64,000 nt of DNA from Sphingomonas limnosediminicola (GTDB taxonomy: Bacteria > Pseudomonadota > Alphaproteobacteria > Sphingomonadales > Sphingomonadaceae), in the NCBI RefSeq assembly GCF_039537965.1, contig NZ_BAABBM010000001.1:558001-622000 (forward strand). The letters run 5' to 3'. Position 1 is the stretch's first letter. Every line of letters begins with the position of its first letter. Under the pieces are notes generated by a model. It was not told the origin of the DNA and searched no databases. It saw nothing but the letters and a program-made list of their open reading frames with translations. Positions 8,561-61,133 of the stretch are shown piece by piece. The position numbers were made by a program, and so were the translations under genes.

Positions 8561-10480
8561 TCAGATTTGCAACTGGCTTCCGAGCTCGATCACACGGTTG
8601 GTCGGCAGTTTAAAGAATTCCATCGCGCTTTCGGAACTCTTCAACATCCAGGCGAACAGGCGCTCGCGCCACAGCGCCATCCCTTCATGTTTCTTTGACG
8701 CGATCAGCTTCTGGCGTCCGAGGAAGAAGCTGGTGCTCATCATGTCGAATGGCGCGCCGCACGTCTTGATGAGGGCGAGATCGCGCGGAATGTCGACTTC
8801 TTCCATGAAGCCGTAGTGGAGGATGACGCGATAGAAGCCGCTGCCGGCGTCATGAATTTCGAGCCGCTTTTTCACCGGCACGTGAGGCACCTCTTCCACC
8901 TTCACGTTGAGGATGAGAACGCGCTCATGGAGCACTTGGTTGTGCTTGAGATTGTGCAGCAGTGCTGCGGGAACGACCTCGGCCGAAGTCGACAGGAAGA
9001 CAGACGTTCCTCGCACCCGGTGCACTGACGCGCTTACCGATTTGATGAACACCTCGAGCGGAAGCGCCGCTTCCTGAAGCCGCTCGCGCATCAACTGGCG
9101 GCCCTTGGCCCAGGTCGTCAGCACGGTGAAGCTGATCGCGGCGATGAGCAGCGGGAACCAGCCGCCGTCGGGGATCTTGGTGATGTTGGAAGCGAAATAA
9201 GCGCCGTCGACGAGCAGGAAGAGACCGGTCAGGCCAAACGCCACCAGCCGGTTCCACTTCCACACCGACACCATCATGACGCCCAGCATGGCGGTGGTAA
9301 TCAGCATCGTGCCGGTGACCGCGATGCCGTATGCCGATGCGAGGTTCGAGGATTCGCGGAAGCCTAGGACCAGCAGGATTACCATCACCAGCAGGCCCCA
9401 GTTGACCGCGGGGATGTAGATTTGCCCGGCGGCCTTCTCGCTCGTGTGCTCGGTGCGAAGCCGCGGCAGGAAGCCGAGCTGAACCGCCTGGTGCGTGACC
9501 GAGAAGGCGCCCGAGATCACGGCCTGACTAGCGATGATCGTCGCGACGGTGGCAAGGATCACGAGCGGCAGACGAGCCCAGTCCGGTGCCAGTAGGTAGA
9601 AAGGGTTGATCGCCGCGTGCGGGTTGCCGAGCAGGAGCGCGCCCTGCCCCATGTAGTTGAGCACCAGGCACGGATAGACGAGGGTCAGCCAGGAGAAGTT
9701 GATCGCCTTGCGCCCGAAGTGGCCCATGTCGGCGTAGAGCGCCTCAGCGCCGGTGACGCAGAGGAACACGGAGCCGAGCGCCAGGAAGGCGAGCTTCGGG
9801 TTGTAGGCGAAGAACTTTACCGCCCACACCGGATTGACGATCCCGATGATATCCGGGTGCTTCACGATGTTCACGATGCCGAGAAAGGCGATCACCGCGA
9901 AGTACAGCAGCATCACGGGCCCGAAAATCAGGCCGACGCGCGCCGTCCCTCTCGCCTGCACAAGGAAAAGCGCGACCAGGATCCCGATGGAGATGGGGAG
10001 CACGAGCGGCTGGAGCCCGGCTTGGACGATCGTCAGGCCCTCCACCGCCGAAAGCACAGAAATCGCCGGCGTGATCATCGCGTCGCCGTAAAAAAGGCAG
10101 GTCGCGAGAACACCCATGACGACGAGGCCCGCTGTCCACCTCTTTCCGGCCAAGTTGCGCGCAATCAGCGAAAGCAAGGCGAACGACCCACCCTCGCCCT
10201 TGTTATCTGCCCGCATTGCAACGCCGACATATTTGAACGTGACGATCATCATCAGCGTCCAGAAAATGAGGCTGAGCACACCGAAGATGTGCAGCGGGTC
10301 CACCGCCAGCGGGTGCGGACCGAGGAAGCTTTCCTTCATCGTATAAAGCGGCGACGTCCCGATATCACCGTAAACGACCCCGACCGCGCCGAGCATCAGC
10401 TTCGGCAGCGTTTCCCTGGGTCCGTGATGCGCAGGCGCGTTGTCGCCCGAGAGCGCGATGTCGGCAGTCGCTGTAGCCAT
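8561..10480 (-). CDS. kup: Low-affinity potassium uptake protein Kup
   Basis: The protein has 639 residues with about 12 membrane helices followed by a cytosolic C-terminal domain, the normal KUP length. The family signature GVVYGDIGTSPLYTMKE lies near residue 34, and FKYVGVAMRADNKGEGG is also typical. Kup takes up K+ with H+ across the inner membrane. It is transcribed divergently from a KdpD/KdpE-like hybrid regulator 126 bases away, and I infer that regulator controls it. The upstream region carries a CATAAAG repeat at 33-base spacing. Confidence 0.96.
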   Translation of the reverse strand: MATATADIALSGDNAPAHHGPRETLPKLMLGAVGVVYGDIGTSPLYTMKESFLGPHPLAVDPLHIFGVLSLIFWTLMMIVTFKYVGVAMRADNKGEGGSFALLSLIARNLAGKRWTAGLVVMGVLATCLFYGDAMITPAISVLSAVEGLTIVQAGLQPLVLPISIGILVALFLVQARGTARVGLIFGPVMLLYFAVIAFLGIVNIVKHPDIIGIVNPVWAVKFFAYNPKLAFLALGSVFLCVTGAEALYADMGHFGRKAINFSWLTLVYPCLVLNYMGQGALLLGNPHAAINPFYLLAPDWARLPLVILATVATIIASQAVISGAFSVTHQAVQLGFLPRLRTEHTSEKAAGQIYIPAVNWGLLVMVILLVLGFRESSNLASAYGIAVTGTMLITTAMLGVMMVSVWKWNRLVAFGLTGLFLLVDGAYFASNITKIPDGGWFPLLIAAISFTVLTTWAKGRQLMRERLQEAALPLEVFIKSVSASVHRVRGTSVFLSTSAEVVPAALLHNLKHNQVLHERVLILNVKVEEVPHVPVKKRLEIHDAGSGFYRVILHYGFMEEVDIPRDLALIKTCGAPFDMMSTSFFLGRQKLIASKKHEGMALWRERLFAWMLKSSESAMEFFKLPTNRVIELGSQLQI

Positions 10481-10503
10481 GGCGCCGATGTGGGCTTCGG
10501 GGG

Positions 10504-10543
10504 CATAAAGATTCTATGTGGTTTTCGTGATGGCCCCATAAAG
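10504..10543. promoter_or_regulatory. Candidate operator between kup and the KdpD/KdpE-like regulator
   Basis: CATAAAG occurs at 10504-10510 and again at 10537-10543, exactly 33 bases (three helical turns) apart, in the shared upstream region of kup and the divergent regulator. Winged-helix proteins of the OmpR/KdpE class bind direct repeats spaced by multiples of about one turn. The link to the neighbouring regulator is inference; a 7-base repeat can occur by chance. Confidence 0.25.
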
Positions 10544-10606
10544 GAATGGCTGCGAATTGGCCGTCAAATACTCGACGAACGGCGATCCAAGGCGCACCTA
10601 GGCGCT

Positions 10607-11929
10607 ATGTTCAACGACCTGAGCCAATCCAGTGCGGGAGGCTTCCGCGGTTATGCGGCGGCGCTGCTGATGGTTGGCGCGTCGACAGCCGTGGGCATGT
10701 TGATGGCCCCTCGTTGGGGCAATTCGGCGGTCGATCTTCTTTACCTGCCCGCGGTGCTCGGCGCAGCGGTCCTGGCCGGCCTCGGCCCGGCGCTAATCGC
10801 CGCGGTCTGCTCAGTCCTCGCATATAATTTCTTCTTCACCGAACCGGTCCACACCTTCCGCATCCACAGCGGCAGCGACATCGTGACAGTGGTCGTCTTG
10901 TTCCTGGTGGCCGTCGTTACCAGCCACCTCGCCGCATCGATCCGGCAGCAGGCCCAATTCGCGGAGGCGCATGCGGAGCGCAGTGCGACCACCGCTGGGC
11001 TTGCGCGGAAGCTCCTGTCTTGCACCAGCCTGCAGGAAATCGCGCAGATCAGCGTGAGTGAACTGGGCGCAATTTTCTATTGCAACGCCATACTCCTAGC
11101 CGGACGCCCCCAAGCACGGGTCATTGCTTCCGCTCCTGATTCCGTGACGTTGACGCCCGGCGACATCGCTGCCGCAGCCACGGTGTTCGCGACCGGTGAG
11201 CGGACGGGCCGAGGAATAACGCGCGTCACGACCGTGGAGTGGCAGCTCCACGCCGTGCGTGGAGAGTCGGCCGTGACGGCAGTAGTCGGTCTGGCGCGGG
11301 ACAATGGCAGCGCTCCTGTCCTGCCCGAGCAATTCTCTCTGCTCGAGAGCCTGCTCGACCAGATCGCCTTGGCGATGGAACGTGCGCGCCTGGAAGGCGA
11401 AACGCGTCAATTCGCTACGCTGCGGGAGCGCGACGCGGTCCGCTCAAGCCTGTTGTCGTCGATCGGCGAGGATTTGAAGCCGCCGATCGCCGCGATCGGA
11501 ACAGCCATTGCCGAGTTGCGGCGAACGGGCTCGGGCGAGAAGGCGCTTGTTTCTGAAGTCGCATCGGAGACGGCGAAGCTGCAGCGCTATCTCTCCAATC
11601 TCCTAGACCTTGGCTCCGACGCAGAAAGCGAACCTGTCGAGGTCGCGGGCGTCAAGATCGACCTCTTCCACCGTCTCGTGTCACGCGATGGCGAGGACGT
11701 CCACCTGACGCCGAAGGAATATGCCGTGCTTGCTGAGCTCGCGAAATATCCCGGGCGCGTGCTCCCCCACGCGCATCTGCTCAAGGCCGTTTGGGGCCCG
11801 GCGCAGGAGCGTCAAACCGAGTATCTCCGCGTCGCCGTCCGCGCCCTTCGTCAAAAGCTGGAACGGGATCCGACGAACCCGAAGATCATCATCAACGAGC
11901 CGGCAGTGGGTTATCGGCTCGCAGGGTGA
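10607..11929 (+). CDS. KdpD/KdpE-like hybrid: membrane sensor fused to OmpR-type DNA-binding domain
   Basis: The protein has 440 residues in one uninterrupted frame. Residues 15-112 form a KdpD-type four-helix membrane domain (DUF4118; LAYNFFFTEPVHTFRI is characteristic). Residues 130-262 look like the KdpD GAF domain. Residues 266-335 align with the KdpD dimerisation helix, but the phospho-His site reads SSIGEDLKPP, with Glu288 instead of His. No ATP-binding kinase domain and no receiver domain follow. Residues 350-440 are a KdpE-like winged helix (HLTPKEYAVLAELAKYPGRV, then YLRVAVRALRQKLE). It lacks the N-terminal KdpD/USP part. I infer a membrane-tethered one-component transcription factor controlling the divergent kup gene, working like ToxR or CadC rather than by phosphotransfer. 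Confidence 0.88.
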   Translation: MFNDLSQSSAGGFRGYAAALLMVGASTAVGMLMAPRWGNSAVDLLYLPAVLGAAVLAGLGPALIAAVCSVLAYNFFFTEPVHTFRIHSGSDIVTVVVLFLVAVVTSHLAASIRQQAQFAEAHAERSATTAGLARKLLSCTSLQEIAQISVSELGAIFYCNAILLAGRPQARVIASAPDSVTLTPGDIAAAATVFATGERTGRGITRVTTVEWQLHAVRGESAVTAVVGLARDNGSAPVLPEQFSLLESLLDQIALAMERARLEGETRQFATLRERDAVRSSLLSSIGEDLKPPIAAIGTAIAELRRTGSGEKALVSEVASETAKLQRYLSNLLDLGSDAESEPVEVAGVKIDLFHRLVSRDGEDVHLTPKEYAVLAELAKYPGRVLPHAHLLKAVWGPAQERQTEYLRVAVRALRQKLERDPTNPKIIINEPAVGYRLAG

Positions 11930-11956
11930 TGCCGAGCGGTGCTACAGCGCCACCGT

Positions 11957-12208
11957 ATGCCGCAGCTCCCTGCCCCTTCTGCACGTCCATTGGCCGGAAT
12001 CGCCCTGATTCTGTTGCTGATCGTCGTTTGGGCGACGTTCGTCGCAAGCCTGGCGCGGACTGTCGGACAATGGTCTATACCCGTTCAGGCCATTTACTAT
12101 CTCATTATGGGAATAGTCTGGATTATCCCATTGAAACCATTGGTGAGATGGGTCCAGACAGGGTCGTTCCGGAAGGTTTCGAAAGACGCATCCGCCGGCC
12201 AAGATTGA
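11957..12208 (+). CDS. DUF2842 small membrane protein
   Basis: This 83-residue protein has two predicted membrane helices (about 17-36 and 45-64). The motif IYYLIMGIVWIIPLKPLVRWV is the hallmark of alphaproteobacterial DUF2842 proteins, whose function is unknown. I chose ATG 11957; a GTG at 11939 would add six residues and neither start has a clear ribosome-binding site. It begins 27 bases after the hybrid regulator and could share its transcript. Confidence 0.8.
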   Translation: MPQLPAPSARPLAGIALILLLIVVWATFVASLARTVGQWSIPVQAIYYLIMGIVWIIPLKPLVRWVQTGSFRKVSKDASAGQD

Positions 12209-59561: not shown

Positions 59562-59567
59562 CTATAA
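59364..59567 (+). pseudogene. Possible C-terminal gene fragment
   Basis: The frame reads RHQAFTYKGHVDPCAYLWHG and GGHMTLVGYTDNDWTP before stopping. It has protein-like composition, but no start or N-terminal part is seen upstream, where frames change. It may be a decayed gene; the family is not recognised. Confidence 0.3.
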
Positions 59568-61133
59568 GCGCGGTGGCTTGGCTGCATCCATACGAACATA
59601 ATCAGGTTTCACGCCCCGCCTTTGCCAATATTCGACAAGGCCGATGCCATGGCAAAGCGGGATGAATCTGGGGTCCGCCCGCATTTCCTTACACGGCGGT
59701 GCGAACAGCCACGAGGTGTTGATCCGATGCATGGCATCGGTCGGTTCGCGTTCATATGCCGGCTTCCGGGCCTGCACGATCGCGCTTCGGGAAAGCAAAT
59801 GGCCGGTGGCGACCTCAAACGCCGAGTCCACCTCCCGGAGCGCGCTCAGTATCACCATCGCGTAGCCCGCGAGCTCGCCCGATACTTGGGCAGCGGCGAA
59901 GCATGCCTCGCGGGCGCGGGCGATGTTGGTGACGGATGGGTCTTCCAGTGCGTGTAGGCCGGTGCGCCACATGTCCGTCTCGGGGCCCTTACGAAGCATT
60001 CCAGGATCGGCGCCCAACATCGTTTCCGCCGCTCGGGCGCGGCCCGTGAAAGCATAGAGTCTGAACCGAACCGACCAGATCCAGCGACTCGTCGGAAAAG
60101 ACGTGCGCAGCTGATTGATGACGTTGTCCGCGTCTGCCACCAAGCCGGACATCCAGAGCCGTGTCGCGCGGCCGGCCAATGCGTTCTGCGAAAGCGGCAA
60201 CAAAGAGATGTTTCGTTCCCCCCAGAGTGATGATTCCCGCGTCATGCCAGCGGCAAGAAGCAAGGCGGCGAGCTCGCCAGTCGCGAGCTCGTTCCTTGAA
60301 TCAATCGTTATCACTTTGCGGAGAAGGCGATCGCGTCCCCACCAGTCGAGCGTCGCCCCCTCCAGCTCGAACATTGCCATCAGCGCGTTCGGCTCTTTTG
60401 GATCGATCGCGAGCGCCTGCTGTGCGATCTGCGCAGCATTTGCGACGCTCGTCGCAGAATGCTCCTCCGGTGCAGTCTGTGCGAAGTAGCTCTTCGTCAG
60501 CGCCAACCAGCCCAGCGCACGCGGATTGTCGGGATGAATGTCTGTCGCTTCCTGGAAAGCCCGCAGCGCGACATCCGGCCTGAACTGGTTGTCGTCACCG
60601 GCGAGAGCAGCATGCCCCTGACGCAGCAACGCCTCGAACCGGCGGTCCCGCGATGAGTTGGAAGCCGCCCACGCTCCCAGCCCTCCCAGGACAACGAAGG
60701 CAATCGCCGCCTTCGCAAGGTTTCGGCGATCGAGGCCGATTGCCGCCTTGCCAATGTCGTCGGGAACTTTCGCTAAGCTGCCGCTGAGGCGATAGCCTGC
60801 CTTGCGGATCGTCTCGATCTCGAAGCCCTCGCCGCCAAGTTGGCCAATTACCTTTCGCAAAGCCAAAACCACGCGGTTCAAGCTATCGTCGCCGACGTAG
60901 ACGTCGCCCCAACAGCGCTCGAACAAAGTCTCCCGAGTGACGACGCGTCCCGCCTCGTCGGCAAGAGCGACCAGCACTTGCATCACGCGCGGCTGGACCT
61001 CCGTCGTGCCGAGCGGACCCGTCATCTGCCGCCGCGGCGGCGAGACAAAAACATTGCCTATTCGAAAGGCGTCCGCGCTCGCCAGATCAGCAATGGAAAT
61101 CGCTTGGCGCGATTGTTTGCGTGACACATCCAA
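59562..61133 (-). CDS. Membrane-bound winged-helix transcription regulator with TPR-like domain (CadC-type)
   Basis: This 523-residue protein has an OmpR/PhoB-type winged helix at about 22-118 (QPRVMQVLVALADEAGRVVT, then SLNRVVLALRKVIG and TIRKAGYRLSG). One membrane helix (about 139-157) is followed by a periplasmic region of about 360 residues with TPR-like helices (ALRAFQEATDIHPDNPRALG). This is the CadC/ToxR one-component layout. TTG 61133 or GTG 61127 may be the start. It is divergent from urcA, and an 11-base-period repeat lies between them. Confidence 0.87.
   Translation of the reverse strand: MDVSRKQSRQAISIADLASADAFRIGNVFVSPPRRQMTGPLGTTEVQPRVMQVLVALADEAGRVVTRETLFERCWGDVYVGDDSLNRVVLALRKVIGQLGGEGFEIETIRKAGYRLSGSLAKVPDDIGKAAIGLDRRNLAKAAIAFVVLGGLGAWAASNSSRDRRFEALLRQGHAALAGDDNQFRPDVALRAFQEATDIHPDNPRALGWLALTKSYFAQTAPEEHSATSVANAAQIAQQALAIDPKEPNALMAMFELEGATLDWWGRDRLLRKVITIDSRNELATGELAALLLAAGMTRESSLWGERNISLLPLSQNALAGRATRLWMSGLVADADNVINQLRTSFPTSRWIWSVRFRLYAFTGRARAAETMLGADPGMLRKGPETDMWRTGLHALEDPSVTNIARAREACFAAAQVSGELAGYAMVILSALREVDSAFEVATGHLLSRSAIVQARKPAYEREPTDAMHRINTSWLFAPPCKEMRADPRFIPLCHGIGLVEYWQRRGVKPDYVRMDAAKPPRL

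Follow-up and report, generated by a model that had tools for sequence, protein, structure and literature searches.

Described systems related to the locus

The sensor kinase KdpD and the response regulator KdpE form the described system closest to the locus analyzed here. What KdpD perceives was debated for a long time (PMC5936718); the protein is described as sensing external K+ through a site accessible from outside and internal K+ through its C-terminal cytoplasmic part (PMC5936718; PMC11018627). KdpE is an activator (PMC5458449; PMC3264566). Its site in E. coli reads TTTATA-N5-TTTACA, its DNA contacts include R193, R200, and T215, and its isolated DNA-binding domain binds both half-sites and cannot activate (PMC3264566). 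A survey of KdpD variants, drawn from species with an annotated Kdp pump, reports that nearly all versions retain the N-terminal domain and that some have lost the kinase part (PMC11018627). In E. coli, expression of the potassium permease Kup is described as constitutive (PMC5458449).

Sensing and DNA binding may also reside on one chain. Proteins of the ToxR family carry an N-terminal DNA-binding domain, one membrane helix, and a C-terminal periplasmic sensor, and two-component systems are regarded as having arisen later than one-component systems (PMC5936718). Transmembrane transcription regulators are defined more broadly, by a DNA-binding domain and at least one membrane region, and their hybrid class, in which parts of two-component systems and a DNA-binding domain meet in a membrane protein, holds at least one of the receiver, HATPase, and HisKA domains (PMC10269533). 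A word search of the main text of that paper returned no occurrence of KdpD.

The window analyzed here, a 64,000-nucleotide stretch of the Sphingomonas limnosediminicola genome, contains a gene that quite likely encodes a membrane-tethered one-component regulator of K+ uptake, derived from a KdpD-KdpE pair, independent of phosphorylation, and most likely an activator of kup. The reading of this protein as a tethered one-component regulator was put forward in an original prediction made from the sequence. Support for it comes from 24 sequences of one clade, each with both parts in a single frame, and from a conserved linkage to kup. The present analysis adds a candidate operator, the recognition of the linked kup as a second paralogue, and a two-component form of the locus.

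Domain organization and structure of the fusion protein

The fusion gene lies at 10607..11929 on the forward strand (open frame 10607–11926, with the stop codon extending to 11929) and encodes 440 amino acids in a frame that is open throughout, as originally predicted. A longer start at 9617, which appears in a mechanical list of open reading frames and runs antisense to kup, is disfavored relative to the ATG at 10607, since conserved promoter-like elements lie directly upstream of the latter.

A Pfam search of the protein returned DUF4118, GAF_3, a sub-threshold HisKA, and Trans_reg_C, which together with NCBIfam and structure matches bears out the proposed order of KdpD membrane and GAF domains followed by a KdpE-like winged helix. 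On the forward strand these correspond to a four-helix membrane domain (residues 16–120, 10652..10966; DUF4118, E 6e-28) that aligns with its counterpart in E. coli KdpD (2ksf); a GAF domain (residues 141–259, 11027..11383; GAF_3, E 5e-6) with a structural match to that of KdpD; a degenerate DHp hairpin (residues 279–336, 11441..11614), where HisKA scores E 1.9e-4 and 21.9 bits, below the cut-off of 26.9; and a KdpE-type winged helix (residues 344–438, 11636..11920), identified by Trans_reg_C at residues 362–438 (E 4e-21) and by structure matches. Searched up to E 1, Pfam gave neither a HATPase nor a receiver (Response_reg) match, in agreement with the predicted loss of the kinase ATPase domain and the receiver, and PF02702, the N-terminal KdpD domain, was likewise without a Pfam match. 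The top NCBIfam matches divide the chain between KdpD (residues 13–336) and KdpE (residues 338–438), both far under the equivalog cut-offs, and a sequence search against solved structures similarly returned the membrane domain of KdpD (2ksf) and KdpE, the latter best represented by its DNA-binding domain, 3zq7.

An AlphaFold2 model based on 66 sequences (mean pLDDT 83) places four N-terminal helices (residues 12–37, 40–57, 59–77, and 89–137) before a GAF fold and a long helical hairpin, which leads into a short low-confidence hinge (residues 337–339) and then the winged helix. The pTM of 0.48 is low, so the individual folds are credible and their placement relative to one another is not. Foldseek ranked DNA-bound KdpE (4kfc, 4kny) at the top, matched the KdpE DNA-binding domain 3zq7 with a TMt of 0.92, and found the KdpD GAF domain (4y2f, 4qpr) at ranks 18 and 25 with a TMt of 0.75–0.79.

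Alignment of the DHp-like segment confirmed that Glu288 (11468–11470) occupies the column of the phosphorylated histidine. None of the 21 other fusions from genomes and contigs has His there, and the 22 sequences including that of the window show E, Q, D, T, A, or R. In a larger set of 142 sequences, 136 have a residue other than His and 124 have Q, E, or D; His is retained in 6 of 120 database homologues, these being the 120 listed of 2380. Mean column conservation is highest in the winged helix (0.83) and the membrane domain (0.79), followed by the DHp (0.69) and GAF (0.68) domains, while residues 337–345 reach 0.60, with only the N-terminus lower. R408, R415, and N430, which are invariant in 24 of 24 fusions, align with the DNA-contacting R193, R200, and T215 of KdpE; the position of N430 is occupied by T in E. 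coli KdpE and by N in 17 of 27 KdpE-type rows.

Distribution and phylogeny of the fusion

Full-length fusions are present in 20 of the 298 genomes sampled from the family, including that of the window, and the other 19 are 51–62% identical to its copy. The fusion query matched 80 further family genomes, none across the full length. Two named Sphingomonas metagenome-assembled genomes (L003 and L004) also carry the fusion. A sample of 236 genomes from the order (E <= 1e-70) yielded 13 fusions, all within the family and 11 of them already in the family sample, which adds the genomes G429 and G438. Of 210 genomes sampled from the class, 26 matched at E <= 1e-30, namely the window's own fusion and 25 others with frames of 669–1261 residues and E-values no better than 4e-44; these 25 matches stop by query residue 353, short of the winged helix proper, and the frames are taken as KdpD. 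The database search found 2380 homologues, and all 120 of those listed carry DUF4118 and Trans_reg_C. Among 72,556 plasmid records there was no match to the fusion at E 1e-40.

A tree of the sensor domain was built from 24 fusions, 16 long KdpD proteins, and 11 KdpD proteins of under 650 residues. The 24 fusions form one clade with support of 100/100, whose sister, with moderate support (93/86), is the short KdpD of genome G003. The original prediction named a frameshift or misassembly at the junction as a finding that would refute it; in all 24 sequences of this single clade, the KdpD and KdpE parts share one uninterrupted frame. The fusion is no artifact, since it recurs in 20 of the 298 family genomes, and chance or misassembly is rejected.

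The linked kup and the inventory of potassium transporters

The presumed target gene, kup, encodes a K+ uptake permease (8561..10480, reverse strand; K_trans E 7e-187, K_trans_C E 7e-52) and diverges from the fusion across a gap of 126 bp. The divergent arrangement, already noted in the original prediction, is found in 22 of 22 other loci (21 with a full fusion, the contig of L008 ending inside the fusion and that of L003 within kup) and in two of two loci added later. The fusion is thus conserved beside kup in relatives.

The genome of the window holds two Kup genes, and the copy linked to the fusion is a second paralogue. Two Kup matches occur in 20 of 20 fusion genomes, compared with two or more in 41 of 278 others, by a hand count that includes fragments. 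A Kup tree of 58 rows places all 22 copies linked to the fusion on the same side of one branch, itself weakly supported (52/96), close to kdp-linked copies and the copy belonging to the pair of G003, while eight of nine first copies from fusion genomes fall in a different group. Genome G081 (L080), for which the fusion query gave no match at E 1e-30, also has a second kup, placed on a long branch; this genome may have lost the regulator.

No KdpA, PF02702, or TrkH match was found in the genome of the window. KdpA is matched in 1 of 20 fusion genomes vs. 76 of 278 others (p 0.03, kinship ignored) and PF02702 in 1 of 20 vs. 77 of 278. The original prediction proposed a check for the absence of kdpFABC, and the search for kdpA found none in the window's genome or in 18 of the 19 other fusion genomes, one of these kdpA-negative genomes (G022) being only 67% complete. 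The exception, G149, has the fusion, kdpA, and a separate KdpD-KdpE pair of its own, and therefore the fusion is not simply a replacement. Based on the searches for KdpA, PF02702, TrkH, and Kup, potassium uptake in the window's genome may rest on Kup alone. The same genome contains nine Trans_reg_C matches.

On the other side of the fusion, a DUF2842 frame (11939–12205, forward strand) starts nine bases past its stop codon; no match to this frame was found at E 1e-6 in the 22 other fusion loci.

A candidate operator between kup and the fusion

The stretch that separates the two genes differs in both length and sequence across 23 loci, yet it contains a candidate operator (10504..10524, forward strand; 28.7 bits over the 23 loci) composed of two tandem 11-bp half-sites (CATAAAGATTC / TATGTGGTTT). 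Mean pairwise identity reaches 0.895 within the operator but only 0.39 over the adjoining 10 bp toward kup and 0.29 over the 12 bp of the opposite flank. The 21-bp consensus, CATAAAGATTCCATGTGGATT, is matched at 17–21 of 21 positions in 22 of the 23 loci; the 14 matching positions in L008 are within the range of shuffled sequences (maximum 15). Two later loci, outside the set used for motif discovery, both carry the operator. Direct reading reveals an additional half-site-like 11-mer (CATAAAGGAAT; 10537..10547, forward strand) in 11-bp register with the operator, and comparable 11-mers are present at this position in some but not all of the other loci, L055 and L057 being examples.

With up to two mismatches allowed and a pattern written to cover the window's own variant base, the operator core occurs once in the window's genome. 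Of 20 fusion genomes, 19 carry it next to the fusion, compared with a match, at two mismatches, in 2 of 278 others; this co-distribution has a Fisher p of 9e-27 when kinship is ignored. The copy in G200 has three mismatches. Operator-like sites with two mismatches occur in G242 (L122) and G150 (L123), which belong to the same genus and carry the site away from kup, and in G091. By eye, the extra site of L122 lies near SPFH and CoA-lyase-like genes.

The operator is a tandem repeat of period 11 that resembles the E. coli KdpE site on the other strand, with a diverged distal half-site. Because the distal half-site CATGTGGATT deviates from the CATAAAGATT half-site, the specificity of the fusion may differ from that of KdpE. 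KdpE-type repeats were also scanned at periods of 6–18 in 65 loci that lack the fusion, chosen for KdpD, KdpE, or Kup similarity. Pairs matching at least 16 of 20 positions numbered 18 at period 11, in 13 of the 65 loci, and 0–3 at each other period; with the laxer threshold of at least 15 in 47 family loci, there were 10 at period 11 and 0–5 at other periods. Of 16 retrieved family kdpD/kdpE loci without the fusion (L077–L079, L081–L085, and L092–L099), only 4 have a strong repeat (at least 16 of 20), namely L077, L084, L092, and L099; the repeat of L084 precedes its kup, and that of L077 is ~1.7 kb from kdpA. Judged on its sequence, the element in the gap is probably a KdpE-like operator for the fusion protein.

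Promoter-like elements on both strands

The position of the operator is fixed with respect to kup. On the kup strand, exactly 10 bp separate its end from a [CG]CA hexamer in all 23 loci, and in both later loci a CCA hexamer has the same spacing. In the window this putative −10 element of the kup promoter reads CCACAT (10488..10493, reverse strand) and lies 7 nt upstream of the kup start codon. An in-frame kup start is found 6–8 nt past the hexamer in 22 of 23 loci (21 ATG and one GTG), with L008 as the exception, and 7–8 nt past it in the two later loci. The place expected for a kup −35 element, 17 bp upstream of the hexamer, falls inside the operator and has the consensus TGGAAT. OmpR/PhoB-family activators usually bind in the −35 region, 10 bp from the −10 element. 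By analogy, the operator would take the place of the kup −35 element.

Upstream of the fusion, the pattern CTCGAC-N17-nCAnnn is found in 22 of 23 loci. The putative −35 element, CTCGAC (10571..10576, forward strand), occurs in all 23 and in both later loci, and the putative −10 element, GCACCT (10594..10599, forward strand), begins 17 bp past it and ends 7 nt before the ATG. The fusion ATG is in frame 7–8 nt past the hexamer in 21 of 23 loci, the distance being 11 nt in L054 and 16 nt in L008. Both later loci have CTCGAC-N17-GCAYCT; in L126 the fusion ATG is 8 nt past the hexamer, and in L125 that position lacks an ATG, and the earliest in-frame start is a GTG located 25 nt further along. Given these short distances, transcripts of both kup and the fusion would start at or near the start codons and be leaderless.

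The gap from the operator to CTCGAC falls into four classes, of 12 bp (5 loci), 22–24 bp (6 loci), 33 bp (1 locus), and 44–47 bp (11 loci), and measures 46 and 22 bp in the later loci. The near-11-bp stepping of these classes (p 0.004) is a hint only, since the period was picked after seeing the data and kinship is ignored.

A two-component form of the locus and a possible origin

Genome G003 (L073) has the same layout, in which a short KdpD with both HisKA and ATPase, and a receiver-bearing KdpE, are encoded divergently from kup. Its KdpD matches the fusion along residues 26–345 (fusion residues 13–335, 43% identity) and its KdpE along residues 128–223 (fusion residues 344–439, 63% identity), and eight fusion residues lie between the two matches. 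The kup gap of G003 contains a tandem repeat with a strong pair. A single in-frame deletion across the kdpD/kdpE border would yield the fusion, and the G003 locus is a possible surviving two-component form. On balance it seems probable that a kdpDE-kup locus collapsed by one such deletion into a phosphorylation-free, tethered activator with a single genomic site, and that both versions of the locus are alive in the family. The fusion would then look like a reverse step, from a two-component to a one-component system, with a possible two-component form persisting in a relative.

Another arrangement occurs in G075, G241, and G127 (L074, L075, and L076), where kup, a short kdpD, and kdpE run in one direction with no KdpA match. 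This is a two-component kup module, whose Kup proteins are far from the others in the tree.

Proposed mechanism and alternatives

In the mechanism that we favor, the membrane and GAF domains would sense potassium supply, and the signal would pass through a dimeric, non-phosphorylatable DHp-like hairpin and the short hinge to paired KdpE-type winged helices, which would bind the tandem 11-bp operator at 10504–10524 while tethered to the membrane. Since a lone KdpE DNA-binding domain does not activate, something must join two such domains, and the GAF/DHp part could pair them in place of the receiver. At low K+, the winged helices would occupy the operator and bring RNA polymerase to kup, and the fusion may also control its own promoter. 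The location of the operator in the kup −35 region, 10 bp from the −10-like element in the layout of OmpR/PhoB activators, suggests that kup is most likely activated when K+ is scarce. We infer K+ as the signal, as well as dimerization, DNA binding, and the direction of control.

The same one-component protein might instead repress kup, and perhaps itself, by blocking RNA polymerase at high K+. Its operator is situated within the promoter region and is flanked by two divergent promoter-like arrays, and one complex shared by the two promoters would agree with the distances to CTCGAC, which fall near 11-bp steps. Direct reading of the kup −35 place inside the operator gives TGGAAT, however, unlike TTGACA, and the exact 10-bp spacing is that of an OmpR/PhoB-family activator. 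With KdpE itself being an activator (PMC5458449; PMC3264566), repression appears rather unlikely. It would be surprising if the protein were a membrane-anchored precursor from which a protease, cutting the hinge (~residues 336–343), freed a soluble winged helix: residues 337–339 form a low-confidence hinge in the AlphaFold2 model, but the poor conservation of residues 337–345 makes a conserved cut site unlikely, and release would lose dimerization, as the isolated KdpE DNA-binding domain binds but cannot activate.

The view that the gene is a functionless, eroded KdpDE remnant draws on the combined loss of the phosphorylated histidine, the ATPase domain, the receiver, and the KdpD N-terminal domain. 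It is hardly credible for a gene that persists as one clade over many genomes, whose winged helix and membrane domain are its best-conserved parts, whose contact residues are invariant in 24 of 24 fusions, and whose operator is conserved and co-distributed with it. The original prediction had also preferred a working protein over erosion, and this preference is strengthened by the long conservation of the fusion and of its operator. If the favored mechanism of phosphorylation-free activation is correct, the locus would offer a direct test of phosphate-free signal passage by a KdpD sensor; joined to a DNA-binding domain, the signal of such a sensor would become readable as DNA binding, with no need to separate kinase from phosphatase activity. 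The locus also suggests that Kup is regulated in sphingomonads without Kdp and TrkH, and it provides what may be a one-site regulon, one that could be tested easily.

Comparison with described regulators

The fusion shares with E. coli-type KdpD/KdpE the four-helix membrane domain, the GAF domain, the DHp position, the winged helix with its contact arginines, and, at the sequence level, an operator of tandem 11-bp half-sites. It differs in being a single chain without the N-terminal KdpD domain, ATPase domain, receiver, or phosphorylated histidine, and in its linkage to kup rather than kdpFABC. The pair of G003 has the same locus layout but remains two proteins with HisKA, ATPase, and receiver. 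Some variants surveyed in PMC11018627 resemble the fusion in having lost the kinase part, whereas the fusion also lacks the N-terminal KdpD domain, and 19 of 20 fusion genomes have no KdpA match.

Like the ToxR/CadC family, the fusion combines a membrane sensor and a winged helix on one chain with no phosphoacceptor, in the reverse order, as its winged helix is C-terminal and follows four membrane helices and a GAF domain. It lacks defining features of KdpD, KdpE, and the ToxR family, and it fits the broad definition of a transmembrane transcription regulator (PMC10269533) as far as its predicted domains indicate. It also brings two-component parts and a DNA-binding domain together in a membrane protein, as the hybrid class does, but of the domains named for that class in PMC10269533 it has only a HisKA match, at 21.9 vs. 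a cut-off of 26.9 bits and with the His missing. No published description of the fusion was found in the literature searched, a partial set with most subscription papers and preprints outside it.

Elsewhere in the window, a frame of 523 residues (59562–61133, reverse strand) begins with an OmpR-type winged helix and continues into a long C-terminal part. Judged by eye, this is the ordinary CadC/ToxR layout, which contrasts with that of the fusion.
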